DNA of 24,317 bases from a virus: IMG/VR virus record IMGVR_UViG_3300042485_000440, positions 1 through 24,317 of that record. The stretch is one strand, 5' to 3'. A program made the position numbers and the translations under genes. The notes below the pieces were generated by a model. The model worked only from the letters and a program-made list of their open reading frames with translations, did no database searches and was not told where the DNA came from. How positions within the stretch are numbered: the first letter of the stretch is position 1; the number at the start of each line of letters is the position of its first letter. Below are positions 10,389-22,134 of this stretch, piece after piece.

Positions 10389-10396
10389 AATAAATA
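10389..10396 (+). promoter_or_regulatory. Possible late-type promoter upstream of DNA polymerase
   Basis: AATAAATA follows the membrane-protein stop, about 75 bases before the polymerase ATG. If active it would give a leader of roughly 70 bases that contains both hairpins of the presumed polymerase operator. Confidence 0.35.
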
Positions 10397-10412
10397 TTTT
10401 AGAATAAGGTTA

Positions 10413-10459
10413 GATCAGCCATAAATGATCATTTTGGTATTTGCAAGCCGGAAATTGCA
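10413..10459 (+). promoter_or_regulatory. Tandem 5-bp/8-nt hairpins, candidate polymerase translational operator
   Basis: Hairpin 1 is GATCA (10413-10417), loop GCCATAAA, TGATC (10426-10430). Hairpin 2 is TGCAA (10442-10446), loop GCCGGAAA, TTGCA (10455-10459). Both have exactly 5 bp and 8 loop bases. The stems differ in sequence but both pair, and the loops share GCC-N2-AAA. Hairpin 2 ends one base before the Shine-Dalgarno AAGGAG (10461-10466). T4 gp43 represses its own translation by binding an 18-base hairpin of the same 5/8/5 form next to its ribosome-binding site. Confidence 0.65.
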
Positions 10460-10471
10460 TAAGGAGAATAA

Positions 10472-13141
10472 ATGAGTTACGTAGACGCTTTCTATGATAG
10501 AGAGCAGGACGTTATCAATGTCGTTGAAAGAGATGACAAAGGTAACAGACATTTCAAAGAATACCCAGCAAGACACATCTTCTATTACCCAGATTCCAAG
10601 GGAAAATATATTTCCATTAAAGGTGAACCTCTGAGTAGGGTTACCAGCAAGAATGTAAAAGAACATCGAAAAGAATTAGCTATACATTCCAATAAAAGAT
10701 TGTTTGAAAGTGATATCAATCCCATATATCGTTGCTTAGAAGACAACTATCTCAACGCTGATGCACCAAAACTAAATGTAGCGTGGTTCGACATTGAGGT
10801 AGACTTTGATCCCGAGCGAGGATACGCATCGCCAGATGATGCTTTCATGCCTATCACAGCCATAGCCATTCATCTACAGTGGTTAGATACTATGGTATGT
10901 CTAGCACTACCTCCTAAAACTCTCAGCATGGCCGAAGCACAAAAACAGGTTGAAGAATTTCCCAATACCATGTTGTTCGAAACAGAAGCAGAAATGTTAG
11001 ACACATTTCTCAACTTGATTGAGGATGCTGATGTGTTAAGCGGTTGGAACAGCGAAGGCTTTGATATTCCGTATACCGTTAATCGTGTGACCAAGGTGTT
11101 ATCAAAAGAAGACACTCGCAGATTCTGTTTGTGGGATCAATATCCTAAAAAACGAGAATATGAAAAATATGGCAAAACTGCTGTGACCTATGATCTGATT
11201 GGTCGTGTTCATCTAGACAGTTTAGAACTGTACAGAAAATATACCTATGAAGAACGACACACTTATAGACTAGATGCTATTGGTGAAACGGAGATCGGTG
11301 AAAATAAAACTGTCTACGAAGGCACGCTGGATCAACTCTATAACAACGATTTTAAAACATTCATCGAATACAATCGTCAAGACTGTGCTTTATTAGATAA
11401 ACTAGATAAAAAATTAAAGTTTCTGGCACTTGCCAACACACTGGCACACGAATGCACAGTGCTGTTGCAGACCACTATGGGTGCTGTAGCAGTTACTGAA
11501 CAGGCTATCATTAATGAAGCACATCGTAGAGGAATGATCGTTCCTAATCGAGTACAACGTGAAGCAGGAATAGATACACAGGCTGCTGGTGCGTATGTTG
11601 CGTATCCTAAGAAAGGTATCCACGAATGGATTGGCTCACTAGATATTAACTCACTGTATCCTTCAGCGATTCGTGCTTTAAACATGGGTCCGGAAACTAT
11701 TGTAGGACAGCTTCGACAAGACGGTACTAGAGCATACATTGAAGCAGAAATGTCCAAAGGTAAATCATTTGCTTCAGCATGGGAAGGTATATTTGGATCA
11801 TTGGAGTATACCGCTGTAATGAATCGCGAAGTGGGCAGAGAAATTACCATAGACTGGGAAGATGGCGGTCATGACACTCTAAGTGCTGCACAGGTATATG
11901 ATTTAATATATGAAAATAATCAACCCTGGATGCTGAGTGCTAACGGAACAATCTTTACCTATGACAAGGAAGGTATCATTCCCGGACTGCTAAAACGTTG
12001 GTATGCTGAACGTAAAGACATGCAGACCAAATTAAAAGAATGTATAACCGCAGGCAATAAGATTGAAGAAGAATACTGGGACAAGCGTCAATTGGTTAAG
12101 AAAATTAACTTAAACAGTTTGTATGGCGCTATTCTTAATCCCGGCTGCCGTTTCTTTGATAATAGAATTGGACAATCGACCACACTCACTGGCCGTGCCA
12201 TCGCTCATCATATGGCTGGCAAAGTCAATGAGATCATTACTGGAGAAAAGAATCACATAGGCAAAGCAATTATCTACGGTGACACAGATTCATGTTATTT
12301 TTCTGCGTATTCAACTCTAAAGCAGGACATTGAAAAAGGATTGATACCGTGGAGCAAAGAAAACATTATTGATCTTTACGATAGCATAGGAGAAGAAGTA
12401 AATGGCACATTCCCTAAATTCATGCAAGAAGCCTTCCATTGTCCAAAAGTCCGAGGTGAAGTTATCAAAGCAGGTCGCGAGATTGTTGCTACCAAAGGAT
12501 TATTCATCACCAAGAAACGATATGCAGTTCTCTACTTCGACAAAGAAGGAAAAAGAACAGACTCAGACGGCAATCCTGGTAAGATCAAAGCCATGGGGCT
12601 TGACCTAAAACGATCAGATACTCCTGTAGTCATCCAGGACTTCTTAAGTGCAGTATTAACTAAAGTTCTGAATGGAGCGGCCAAAGAAGAAGTGCTGGAT
12701 TATATCACCGACTTCCGTACAGATTTCAAGACCAGACCCGGTTGGGAAAAAGGTTCGCCAAAACGTGCCAACAACATCACAGAGTATGCTGCCAAAGAAA
12801 AGAAAGCAGGTAAGACTAATATGCCCGGACATGTTCGAGCCAGTCTGAATTGGAACACTTTAAAACGCATGTTTGATGACAAATATTCAATGACTATCAC
12901 AGATGGTGCTAAAGTCATTGTGTGTCGTCTCAAAGACAATCCAATGGGTCATACTTCTGTGGCATATCCTGTAGACGAACTACGCTTGCCACAATGGTTC
13001 AAAGACTTACCATTCGATGATGGTGAAATGGAAACCACAGTTATAGATGAAAAGTTAGGAAATTTAATTGGTGTTCTAGAATGGGATATCAGTTCAACAC
13101 GCAGTGACAACAATTTTAACAAATTGTTTGATTTTGAGTAA
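10472..13141 (+). CDS. 43: Family B DNA polymerase, T4 gp43 type
   Basis: Replicative DNA polymerase with proofreading, 889 aa (T4 gp43 is 898). The 3'-5' exonuclease motifs are FDIEVD with D107/E109, NSEGFD with D198, and YNRQDC with D304. The polymerase motifs are A (DINSLYPS, D391), B (KKINLNSLYG, 543-552) and C (YGDTDS, D604 and D606). All catalytic acids are present. The C-terminus ends FNKLFDFE, equivalent to the T4 gp43 tail that binds the sliding clamp. The ATG at 10472 has AAGGAG 5 bases upstream. Expression is probably autoregulated through the hairpins at 10413-10459. The clamp gene follows after 59 bases; T4's intervening genes (regA, 62, 44) are absent here. Confidence 0.97.
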   Translation: MSYVDAFYDREQDVINVVERDDKGNRHFKEYPARHIFYYPDSKGKYISIKGEPLSRVTSKNVKEHRKELAIHSNKRLFESDINPIYRCLEDNYLNADAPKLNVAWFDIEVDFDPERGYASPDDAFMPITAIAIHLQWLDTMVCLALPPKTLSMAEAQKQVEEFPNTMLFETEAEMLDTFLNLIEDADVLSGWNSEGFDIPYTVNRVTKVLSKEDTRRFCLWDQYPKKREYEKYGKTAVTYDLIGRVHLDSLELYRKYTYEERHTYRLDAIGETEIGENKTVYEGTLDQLYNNDFKTFIEYNRQDCALLDKLDKKLKFLALANTLAHECTVLLQTTMGAVAVTEQAIINEAHRRGMIVPNRVQREAGIDTQAAGAYVAYPKKGIHEWIGSLDINSLYPSAIRALNMGPETIVGQLRQDGTRAYIEAEMSKGKSFASAWEGIFGSLEYTAVMNREVGREITIDWEDGGHDTLSAAQVYDLIYENNQPWMLSANGTIFTYDKEGIIPGLLKRWYAERKDMQTKLKECITAGNKIEEEYWDKRQLVKKINLNSLYGAILNPGCRFFDNRIGQSTTLTGRAIAHHMAGKVNEIITGEKNHIGKAIIYGDTDSCYFSAYSTLKQDIEKGLIPWSKENIIDLYDSIGEEVNGTFPKFMQEAFHCPKVRGEVIKAGREIVATKGLFITKKRYAVLYFDKEGKRTDSDGNPGKIKAMGLDLKRSDTPVVIQDFLSAVLTKVLNGAAKEEVLDYITDFRTDFKTRPGWEKGSPKRANNITEYAAKEKKAGKTNMPGHVRASLNWNTLKRMFDDKYSMTITDGAKVIVCRLKDNPMGHTSVAYPVDELRLPQWFKDLPFDDGEMETTVIDEKLGNLIGVLEWDISSTRSDNNFNKLFDFE

Positions 13142-13940: not shown

Positions 13941-15548
13941 ATGAAATCACCAGTCAATTTAACTCCACTACAAAAAGACTACGCAGTATATCTCCCTGCA
14001 ATTAGTTCTTTTTATAGTACCTATATTGCTAAACAGAGATTAGAGGAGTTTGTATCAACCGATCGTATTCCTAAAGGTTTTGACCGCGGTATTGAGGGTA
14101 TGAACTTCTTAAATGCGGATCAAGGATACTTTACTTACAAGTATGCTTTGTACTCTGCAGGTCATGCACAACTTGATTTAGAAAAATCAATGGACCAAGA
14201 GTCTATGATTCAGCAACGTGATCGTCCTAACACAATGATCTTAGGTGACTCCGGTGGATATCAAATTGGTAAAGGTGTTTTAAAGTTTGACTGGTTAAAC
14301 TTTGAAGGTGCGGAAGCTAATAAAACTCGTAAAAAAATTCTCGAATGGTTAGAATTAACTGCTGATTGGTCTATGATGTTAGACGTTCCAACATGGGCAT
14401 GTGATCATATTCATAGTCCAAAGACTGGATTAAAAACATTTGAGGACTGTTTAGAAAAGACACGATTTAATAATGATTATTTCTTAAAGAATCGTTTAGG
14501 TCAGACTAAATGGCTTAATGTATTGCAAGGCGGTGATTGGGATACTGCCGAAAAGTGGTATCGCGGAGTGGTAGAGTTTAGTGATCCAAATGGTCCATAT
14601 AAAGGCATCGAAGCAGAAGGCTGGGCATTTGGTGGTGCTAATATGTGTAAGATGGATATCACTCTTAAACGTTTAATGATTATGCGTGACGAAGGTATGC
14701 TTACAGGCAAGAATTGGATTCACTTCTTAGGCACAGCACAACTTGATTGGTCATGTTACCTAACACAGATCCAGCGTCAACTTCGCAAGCATGTCAACCC
14801 AGAACTTACAATTAGTTTTGATTGTGCAAGCCCGTTCATTGCTACTGCACACGGACTGGTGTATACAAATGCACAACATACTAACAAGCGTTGGTCAGTT
14901 ATCATGGACAAGGCTCCGGATAACAAAGCACTTGCTGGATCAGATATTCCGTTTCCGTTTGAAAGTGAATTTGCTTCTAGACTGCTTATGGGCGATATTG
15001 CATATTACAACTACGGTGTTCGTAAGACCGACGAAGAACTAGGCGAGACCAAGTTCAATCACTTAAATCCAGAACATTATAATCAAGTGCCGAAACTTAA
15101 CAAGCTAGGAAAGATTCCTAATAAAACTAGTTGGGATAGTTTTGCTTATGCACTAATGATGGGGCATAACGTTGAATGTCATATTAAAGCGGTACAACGT
15201 GCTCAACAGTTAATGGACATTGAATGTGCTAGATTTAAACCCGATTGGCGAATGAAAAGTATTGAGGGTAAGAAAGAAATTGAATTTAGTGATTGGGTGC
15301 CGAACAAAATTCTTTATTTTTCGACATTTATCGAAGAACTGTTTAATACTAAAACTAAAGCAGAAGCTTTTGACATGATCGAAACTGCTGGTCAGTTCTT
15401 AAAGAGCCTTGAAGGTTCACGTCTACAAGGTGGCCCAGCTGCAAATACATTTGGTAGCTTGTTTGATTTTGATGACGGTAAGAAACCTGCAGAGATTGAT
15501 TTTTCAAATCCAGATGATGACGAGTTAAACAGTTTAGTCGTTGAATAA
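13941..15548 (+). CDS. dpdA: DpdA-like DNA guanine transglycosylase (TGT superfamily)
   Basis: Predicted enzyme that swaps guanine in DNA for a 7-deazaguanine base. It has the TGT TIM-barrel signature in order: GDSGGYQ with D103 (general-base Asp, DSGGFQ in tRNA TGT), MLDVP with D148, VLQGG mid-protein, GWAFGG, and ISFDCASP with D294 in the position of the catalytic nucleophile (FDCVxPTR in TGT). At 535 aa it is longer than bacterial tRNA TGT (about 375). It lacks the C-terminal CxCxxC zinc site, which argues for a DpdA-type DNA enzyme. The acidic tail contains FGSLFDFDD (504-512), matching the polymerase clamp-binding tail. FolE, QueD-like and QueE genes nearby support 7-deazaguanine chemistry. 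The DpdA subfamily cannot be assigned by eye, and a tRNA substrate is not excluded. Confidence 0.82.
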   Translation: MKSPVNLTPLQKDYAVYLPAISSFYSTYIAKQRLEEFVSTDRIPKGFDRGIEGMNFLNADQGYFTYKYALYSAGHAQLDLEKSMDQESMIQQRDRPNTMILGDSGGYQIGKGVLKFDWLNFEGAEANKTRKKILEWLELTADWSMMLDVPTWACDHIHSPKTGLKTFEDCLEKTRFNNDYFLKNRLGQTKWLNVLQGGDWDTAEKWYRGVVEFSDPNGPYKGIEAEGWAFGGANMCKMDITLKRLMIMRDEGMLTGKNWIHFLGTAQLDWSCYLTQIQRQLRKHVNPELTISFDCASPFIATAHGLVYTNAQHTNKRWSVIMDKAPDNKALAGSDIPFPFESEFASRLLMGDIAYYNYGVRKTDEELGETKFNHLNPEHYNQVPKLNKLGKIPNKTSWDSFAYALMMGHNVECHIKAVQRAQQLMDIECARFKPDWRMKSIEGKKEIEFSDWVPNKILYFSTFIEELFNTKTKAEAFDMIETAGQFLKSLEGSRLQGGPAANTFGSLFDFDDGKKPAEIDFSNPDDDELNSLVVE

Positions 15549-17846: not shown

Positions 17847-18611
17847 TTGACAACATTTACATCAAAAGATTTGAATAATGCCCTTAAAAGCGCAGATCAA
17901 ATGAGCAACAAAGGCTACAAAGAAGCATACCTAGGCGATGCTATTCGTTTTAAAATGAAACGTGATAAAAAACGTTTCTGGGCAGGTGATAACATCAGCG
18001 ACTATGTTAGTGAAGACGATAAAACTAAACTAATCGACGAAGCCACAGAGGCATTTGAAATAGTACTTGATCGGTTGTTGATTGATCGTGAAAACGATCC
18101 TAACAGTCAAGGCACAGCACGTAGACTTGCTAAAATGTATTTTAACGAAATCATGGCAGGTAGATATGATCCGTTACCACTTGCAACTAATTTTCCTAAT
18201 GAGGGCGAAGAAGCCTATAAAGGTATGCTAGTAGTTCGCTCAGAACTTCGTAGCATGTGCAGTCATCATCATCAACCTGTAGTTGGCGTTGCGTATATTG
18301 GTGTTATTCCAAACGGCAAAGTTATTGGCCTAAGCAAATACACACGTATCGCACAATGGTGTGCTCGTCGAGGTACTTTACAAGAAGCACTATGTAATGA
18401 CATAGCACATGAAATTGAAAAGGCCACTAATGCCAAAGACATCGGTGTTTACATACAGGCCACACATGGATGCTGTGAGAATCGCGGCATTATGGCGCAT
18501 AGTTCACTGACTCAAACTACAGTACTCAAAGGCGCATTCAAAGACGATCCAGGTACTAAAAAAGAATTCATGGATAATATCAAACTTCAACAAGAATTTG
18601 CTCCAAGATAA
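17847..18611 (+). CDS. folE: GTP cyclohydrolase I (FolE)
   Basis: Zinc enzyme converting GTP to 7,8-dihydroneopterin triphosphate, the entry step to folate and 7-deazaguanine. Zinc ligands are C138 and H141 in the CSHHH segment and C209 in HGCCENRG (CxxH plus distal Cys as in E. coli). Other family signatures are VIGLSKYTRIAQWCARR and the C-terminal SLTQTTVLKGAFKDD. Length is 254 aa against about 220, with an N-terminal extension of about 40 residues. The start is TTG at 17847, supported by CGGAGA (17835-17840) at a 6-base spacing; there is no suitable nearby ATG. Together with the QueD-like, QueE and DpdA-like genes it fits a 7-deazaguanine route more than folate supply. Its stop shares a base with a 31-aa gene. 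Confidence 0.95.
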   Translation: MTTFTSKDLNNALKSADQMSNKGYKEAYLGDAIRFKMKRDKKRFWAGDNISDYVSEDDKTKLIDEATEAFEIVLDRLLIDRENDPNSQGTARRLAKMYFNEIMAGRYDPLPLATNFPNEGEEAYKGMLVVRSELRSMCSHHHQPVVGVAYIGVIPNGKVIGLSKYTRIAQWCARRGTLQEALCNDIAHEIEKATNAKDIGVYIQATHGCCENRGIMAHSSLTQTTVLKGAFKDDPGTKKEFMDNIKLQQEFAPR

Positions 18612-21288: not shown

Positions 21289-22134
21289 ATGAGTAAAATA
21301 AAAGTTGCAGAGCTGTTTTACAGCATACAAGGTGAAGGTCGCTATATGGGAGTACCTAGTGTATTCTTACGTACATTTGGATGTAATTTTAAGTGTTCGG
21401 GCTTTGGCATGCCCAAAGGAGAACTCAGTGAAGAATATCTCAACGTTAATCCAGCGAATTTTATGGAATATGGACGACTTCCGCTTGTGTCTACGGGGTG
21501 TGATAGTTATGCTAGTTGGGATCCTCGTTTTAAGCATCTCAGTCCCGCTTTTGGTACTGAAGAAATTGCTGATAAAATTGTTGACATTCTTCCGTATAAA
21601 CAATGGCAAGATGAGCACCTAGTGATCACAGGCGGCGAACCTTTACTAGGCTGGCAACGTTCATATCCAGAATTATTGATGCATGAAAAAATGCTGGGAT
21701 TAAAAGAACTTACATTTGAAACCAATGGTACTCAAGAATTACAACCAGAATTTAAAACTTGGTTACGTGATTATTGGGGCGAAGTCAAAGGTTATCAAAG
21801 TCTAACATTCAGCGTAAGTGCAAAATTAAGTTGTTCAGGGGAACATCCAGACGAAGCTATACGTCCAGATATCGTATGTTCCTATCAGGAACTTGGACAC
21901 ACCTATCTCAAATTCGTTGTTGCCACAGAAGATGATGCTGAGGAAGCACTAGAAGCTGTTGACATATACAGAGCAGAAGGTTTTGAAGGACATGTTTATC
22001 TAATGCCTGTGGGTGGTGTCGAATCAGTCTATACTCTAAACAATAGACGTGTTGCAGAATTAGCTATGAAGATGGGCCTACGTTACAGTGATAGATTGCA
22101 GGTACCGTTATTTAAAAATGCGTGGGGAACATAA
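21289..22134 (+). CDS. queE: 7-carboxy-7-deazaguanine synthase (QueE), variant cluster motif
   Basis: Radical-SAM enzyme making 7-carboxy-7-deazaguanine (CDG) from 6-carboxy-tetrahydropterin. The family start KVAELFYSIQGEG (5-17) fixes the ATG. The cluster cysteines are C32 and C36 (GCNFKC) and, after a 34-residue insertion, C71 (TGCDSY). The usual order C-x3-C-x2-C is thus C-x3-C-x34-C, with the Asp after the third Cys kept. The SAM-binding GGEP is at 115-118 and FETNGTQ follows, with VYLMPVGG near the C-terminus. Length is 281 aa against about 210-250, mostly due to the insertion. The ErpA-like protein could supply its cluster. The gene ends in a TAATG overlap. Activity despite the insertion is likely because all three Cys remain. 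Confidence 0.9.
   Translation: MSKIKVAELFYSIQGEGRYMGVPSVFLRTFGCNFKCSGFGMPKGELSEEYLNVNPANFMEYGRLPLVSTGCDSYASWDPRFKHLSPAFGTEEIADKIVDILPYKQWQDEHLVITGGEPLLGWQRSYPELLMHEKMLGLKELTFETNGTQELQPEFKTWLRDYWGEVKGYQSLTFSVSAKLSCSGEHPDEAIRPDIVCSYQELGHTYLKFVVATEDDAEEALEAVDIYRAEGFEGHVYLMPVGGVESVYTLNNRRVAELAMKMGLRYSDRLQVPLFKNAWGT

Follow-up and report, generated by a model that had tools for sequence, protein, structure and literature searches.

The 5′ leader of a family B DNA polymerase gene in an uncultured virus, and those of its relatives, carry a conserved RNA element whose folds very probably govern the amount of polymerase. The location of this element, its structure and its occurrence as a single copy per genome strongly imply that the polymerase gene is under translational control. 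In the reading that we prefer, to which we assign a probability of roughly 55%, the element would be an autogenous translational operator of doubled pseudoknots, with the polymerase itself as the predicted ligand.

Layout of the leader and conservation in near relatives

We analysed a window of 24,317 nt, which is a stretch of IMG/VR record IMGVR_UViG_3300042485_000440. Its features at the polymerase gene, read from the sequence, are as follows.

10389–10396, + strand: T4-late-promoter-like box AATAAATA, 12 nt 5′ of unit 1 (tentative)
10408–10430, + strand: putative unit 1 pseudoknot; S1 is GGU 10408–10410 with GCC 10418–10420, L1 is 10411–10412, S2 is GATCA 10413–10417 with TGATC 10426–10430, and L3 is AUAAA 10421–10425
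10413–10430, + strand: hairpin of unit 1, GATCA (10413–10417)-GCCATAAA-TGATC (10426–10430)
10436–10459, + strand: putative unit 2 pseudoknot; S1 is GGU 10436–10438 with GCC 10447–10449, L1 is 10439–10441, S2 is TGCAA 10442–10446 with TTGCA 10455–10459, and L3 is GGAAA 10450–10454
10442–10459, + strand: hairpin of unit 2, TGCAA (10442–10446)-GCCGGAAA-TTGCA (10455–10459)
10461–10466, + strand: Shine-Dalgarno (SD) sequence AAGGAG of the polymerase gene
10472–13141, + strand: family B DNA polymerase gene (889 aa, ATG at 10472), the presumed regulated gene

The polymerase gene matches phrog_262 (E 1e-195) and encodes Pfam DNA_pol_B and exonuclease domains; its 889-aa product is a possible repressor of its own gene. 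The original prediction described two hairpins with 5-bp stems and 8-nt loops before the polymerase SD, and they are present exactly as it stated. Tandem perfect hairpins of this geometry, at most 45 nt apart and with at least 6 of 8 loop positions identical, occur as one pair on the + strand of the window and in none of 100 dinucleotide shuffles of it. The folding energy of the whole leader, taken as a single sequence, is ordinary (z −0.40), and the loop motif GCCNNAAA by itself is not enriched in the window, so the case for the element rests on comparison. In one respect the prediction had to be corrected: the element appears to consist not of plain hairpins, but of two H-type pseudoknots, in which the GGU 5′ of each stem would pair with the GCC of the loop.

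Near relatives were defined as the 80 loci, from one IMG/VR scan with the window polymerase, whose polymerase identity is at least 86%. Both units lie directly 5′ of the SD in all 80, and each stem is shortly preceded by a GGU or GGC complementary to the loop GCC (80 of 80 leaders). The stem of unit 2 retains exact complementarity in every near relative across seven stem sequences, whose 5′ strands read TGCAA, TGTCT, TGTCA, TGTGA, TGCGA, TGAGA and TGTAA. In an alignment of 50 distinct near-relative leaders that was built without reference to structure, 100% of the cells of this stem are paired, 48 cells have two-sided changes, and three pairs covary; when the partner strand is slid by 1–3 columns as a control, pairing falls to 26–40%. 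Unit 1 is conserved with more variable dimensions: GGY...GCC is present in all 80 near relatives, as is an S2 of 4–6 bp, the stem sequences vary, and the 5′ strand has a 1-nt bulge in 60 of the 80. The proposal that the leader is selected for RNA structure is thus borne out by the retention of both units and by the pairing of the unit 2 stem. Covariation and conserved loops in relatives, whose absence the original prediction had named as its refutation, are both clearly present. Noncanonical combinations in S2 are G·U in 31 cases versus A·C in 2, which argues that selection acts on RNA of the mRNA sense. At the level of sequence comparison, covariation establishes the RNA structure of the leader, with both stems formed in the mRNA sense.

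The box listed above contains one of seven ATAAATA sequences in the window, all on the + strand (4102, 4357, 4741, 8633, 8901, 10390 and 24250), a count that is not above expectation. Several lie shortly 5′ of open reading frames (ORFs), and they are possibly T4-like late promoters. Of 230 leaders, 150 have a similar box 5′ of the element.

Pairing, presence and absence in distant relatives

Since the GGU/GCC pairing is nearly invariant among close relatives, we examined S1 in more distant ones, with about 61–68% polymerase identity to the window, which were retrieved with the Phosso, L147 and L115 polymerases as queries. These relatives mostly have a single such unit, at the SD. The predicted doubling of the element before the polymerase SD therefore stands for the window's clade and is restricted to it, whereas other clades have one unit and a different upstream hairpin. 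This hairpin (UCG-stem-loop-stem-CAUG), which replaces unit 1 in L143, L171, L278 and other class 2 and class 3 leaders, has covariation of its own in helix 1.

Besides the window's class, two further classes of leader can be told apart. Class 2 leaders read GGC-NNA-CCG-GCC-AYAAA-CGG-AG, with an inner S1 pair that is C-G in 50 cases and U·G in 11, and class 3 leaders read (G)AGU-..-S2-GCU-..AAR. Covariation of S2 is seen in three leader classes. Among 32 units across classes, 18 have G-C and 14 have A-U as the outer S1 pair, and none has a mismatch there; these units were of equal length and were chosen without demanding that this pair form. On the polymerase tree, the outer pair switched between G-C and A-U at least four times, always on both sides, although four is a small number and the class labels on the tree came from a scanner seeking a paired S1; the unbiased counts of pairing are the S2 alignment tests and the 32-unit count, not the tree labels. 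The clearest switch is in L235, which has the linker AUU and the stem UGUCA of the window's class, yet carries AGU/GCU where that class has GGU/GCC. S1 is not generally extended by a fourth base pair (GAGU/GCUC), which is unpaired in 18 of the 45 cases tested.

Overall, S1 has 3 bp, L1 1–4 nt and S2 3–7 bp, and L3 is A-rich and about 5 nt long. Loops of these lengths fit the geometry of H-type pseudoknots. The loops across classes are GCCNNAAA or GCUNNAAR, within pseudoknots, and once S1 and S2 vary, the only invariant bases are the GC core and AA. The conservation of the loop is explained, at least partly, by the GCC–GGU pairing and the crossing of the A-rich strand.

The 3′ end of S2′ lies at most 6 nt 5′ of the SD in the relatives or overlaps it, as in class 2, where the SD overlaps S2′ (CGG-AG). 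This location falls within the expected footprint of the 30S subunit. We ran covariance models over 21 records, among them the window and three contigs of about 350 kb, and no contig gave more than one confident copy. Confident matches occur in 18 of the 21 records, always in the leader of the polymerase operon, and the three records without a match are contigs whose polymerase leader has no element. In the L247 contig, the sole match is weaker (E 0.002). The idea that the element serves a regulon was rejected, since a second confident copy is absent from all 21 records and five weak matches, when read, were not the element.

The polymerase tree requires 12 or more changes between presence and absence of the element, indicating that the control is dispensable. 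In lineages that lack the leader, the polymerase begins where the preceding gene, for a membrane protein, ends. Where an extra ORF stands between leader and polymerase, the element precedes this ORF, and the polymerase start overlaps the stop of the ORF. These ORFs (L247:1852–2004, L250:1831–2004, L262:1665–1817 and L165:979–2004; also in L179, L237, L189 and L242) differ from one another, encode 50–341 aa and are assigned to no clear family by Pfam; they look like repeated insertions beneath one leader. In 71 of 230 element-bearing leaders, for example L007 and L010, the polymerase apparently starts with TTG rather than ATG. The leaders of the named phages Phosso, Atu_ph07, SCTP-2, PA5oct, 121Q and Vibrio 2.275.O were read and lack the element. 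We found no cultured phage that bears it; the best named relative by polymerase has 51% identity and a leader without the element.

Comparison with known leader elements

In phage T4, the polymerase gp43 controls its own synthesis through a leader hairpin at the polymerase gene (PMC3014915). Like the T4/RB69 operator, the new element is a leader RNA that lies shortly 5′ of the SD at the gene of a family B replicative polymerase, and in T4-like phages, as here, the loop is kept while the stem varies. As we read it, the T4 hairpin is AGCCU-AAUAACUC-GGGCU, with a 5-bp stem and an 8-nt loop, and T4-like leaders have a single such hairpin with the loop AAUAACUC or near variants and a variable stem. 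A 2010 review saw no evidence of a pseudoknot in the T4 gp43 leader (PMC3014915). In contrast, the loop described here is GC[C/U]-NNAAR and pairs with an RGY lying 5′ of it to form H-type pseudoknots, of which the window's clade has two; the single hairpin with a UAAC/UAAA loop is not found, and the expectation of a loop unlike that of T4 holds. A resemblance between T4 leader GGCUAUAAAC and class 2 GGCCAUAAAC was not taken as homology with the T4 operator; we treat it as a coincidence, since other T4-like leaders keep it inconsistently. The element thus likely acts like the gp43 operator, judging from our comparisons, but by structure it is not a member of that group.

The leader of gene 32 in T4, T2 and RB69 also has an H-type pseudoknot, at the gene of a replication protein that represses itself (PMC3014915). 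That pseudoknot is 67 nt 5′ of the start and serves as the nucleation site for cooperative binding of gp32, whereas the window-type pseudoknot, adjoining or overlapping the SD, precedes a polymerase gene and lacks an A+U-rich repeat tract. A leader pseudoknot is found in both, here with covariation in S1 and S2, but in our case there is no ssb gene downstream and no UUAA(A) repeats lie between S2′ and the start codon.

Two other kinds of element are less similar. RegA target sites are unstructured and near the AUG, while the new element is strongly structured; moreover, RegA (PF01818) was absent from eight relatives (five of 338–374 kb and three smaller, perhaps fragments) in a search that detects it in T4 and KVP40. 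The preQ1-I riboswitch is a small H-type pseudoknot at the SD, but it has an unrelated gene context, and Rfam covariance models at gathering score matched nothing in the window or in nine related loci; at a relaxed threshold, the polymerase leader gave nothing credible. We found no description of pseudoknots in phage polymerase leaders in the literature searched, and the RNA structure is undescribed in these sources. Because the T4 structure differs, Rfam has no match and no cultured phage with the element was found, we regard it as a new variant of polymerase-leader control.

Proposed control of the polymerase gene and its significance

We infer that the element represses translation and that its ligand is the polymerase. 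In the mechanism we propose, the polymerase mRNA would form two successive H-type pseudoknots in its 5′ leader (GGU-L1-stem-GCC-NNAAR-stem′), with the second adjoining the SD. These would be kept closed, most likely by free polymerase off the DNA, excluding the 30S subunit and stopping translation; with polymerase occupied on DNA, the leader would open and the gene would be translated. In other clades a single unit would be enough, and there the SD begins within S2′, which would make folding and ribosome binding mutually exclusive. We favour autogenous repression because it is exerted by T4 gp43 from the same place (PMC3014915), because RegA was not found in eight relatives and because gp32-positive relatives lack a confident second copy. 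Binding of the gp43 type is suggested by location, the one copy per genome, the absence of RegA and the likeness to T4. Chances are about even that the leaders form a new pseudoknot family that binds viral family B polymerases, is distinct from that of T4, widespread in large uncultured phages and repeatedly lost, and in which tandem units provide cooperative or graded autogenous repression.

The main rival to autogenous repression is that the pseudoknots tune initiation on the polymerase gene, or protect the mRNA 5′ end, without specific binding. The stability of H-type pseudoknots requires a G-C rich S1 and an A-rich L3, so the conserved parts of the element are those that stabilize such folds, and the conserved GG/CC and A-rich L3, which could serve stability without any ligand, are a point against our preferred reading. 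Also against that reading are the plain hairpin and other loop of the T4 operator, the leader of the best named relative, which lacks the element, and the apparent dispensability of the control. The overlap with the SD in class 2 and the tolerated losses fit this rival too, and the apparent TTG starts of many relatives would suit a gene that must be expressed weakly. However, specific recognition better fits the doubling of units, the retention of the S1′ GC core and the L3 AA while stems vary, and the single confident copy at the gene of a DNA-binding protein, and we consider control without a ligand rather unlikely.

More doubtful still is recognition of the leader by some other protein of the phage instead of the polymerase, for instance a single-stranded DNA-binding protein (SSB) of the gp32 type or a RegA-like repressor. 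The leader of T4 gene 32 does contain a pseudoknot on which gp32 nucleates (PMC3014915), and three of eight relatives have a gp32-like ORF; the weak SSB matches are at G001:147269–147820, G012:204529–205074 and G013:254675–255205. Yet these three records lack a confident second copy, meaning that no element lies at the gp32-like gene, RegA was not detected in the eight relatives, and a repressor with multiple targets should have several sites per genome.

A small-molecule riboswitch, either of the preQ1 type or a nucleotide-sensing aptamer, is improbable. Small H-type pseudoknots are known aptamers, preQ1-I among them, the paired units recall tandem riboswitches, and the window has, by eye, FolE-, QueE- and Tgt-like ORFs. 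Against this, Rfam, preQ1 families included, gave no match, confident copies precede the polymerase operon alone, and the sequences of S1 and S2 vary around the few invariant bases. The ORFs in question (13941–15548, Tgt/DpdA-like; 17847–18611, GTP cyclohydrolase I-like; 21289–22134, QueE-like) suggest a possible pathway for 7-deazaguanine modification of DNA or tRNA (queuosine-type) in this phage. Finally, although DNA sites also carry inverted repeats, a DNA-level feature (protein-binding palindromes, a terminator or an origin) is scarcely credible given the excess of G·U over A·C, the pseudoknot pairing, and a position fixed at the SD, not at a promoter.

The first RNA SELEX experiment was directed at autogenous control by T4 gp43, the structure of the polymerase–RNA complex was unsolved as of a 2010 review, and gene 32 was then viewed as perhaps the only viral pseudoknot in translational autoregulation (PMC3014915). 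The more than 200 leaders described here form a large natural library of another type of operator for the polymerase gene, revealing which pairs and loop bases are kept, as well as repeated S1 swaps, losses and gene insertions under the operator. If autogenous repression is confirmed, the element would join gene 32 as another viral pseudoknot in translational control, and would suggest that replicative polymerases gained specific mRNA recognition through more than one RNA architecture.
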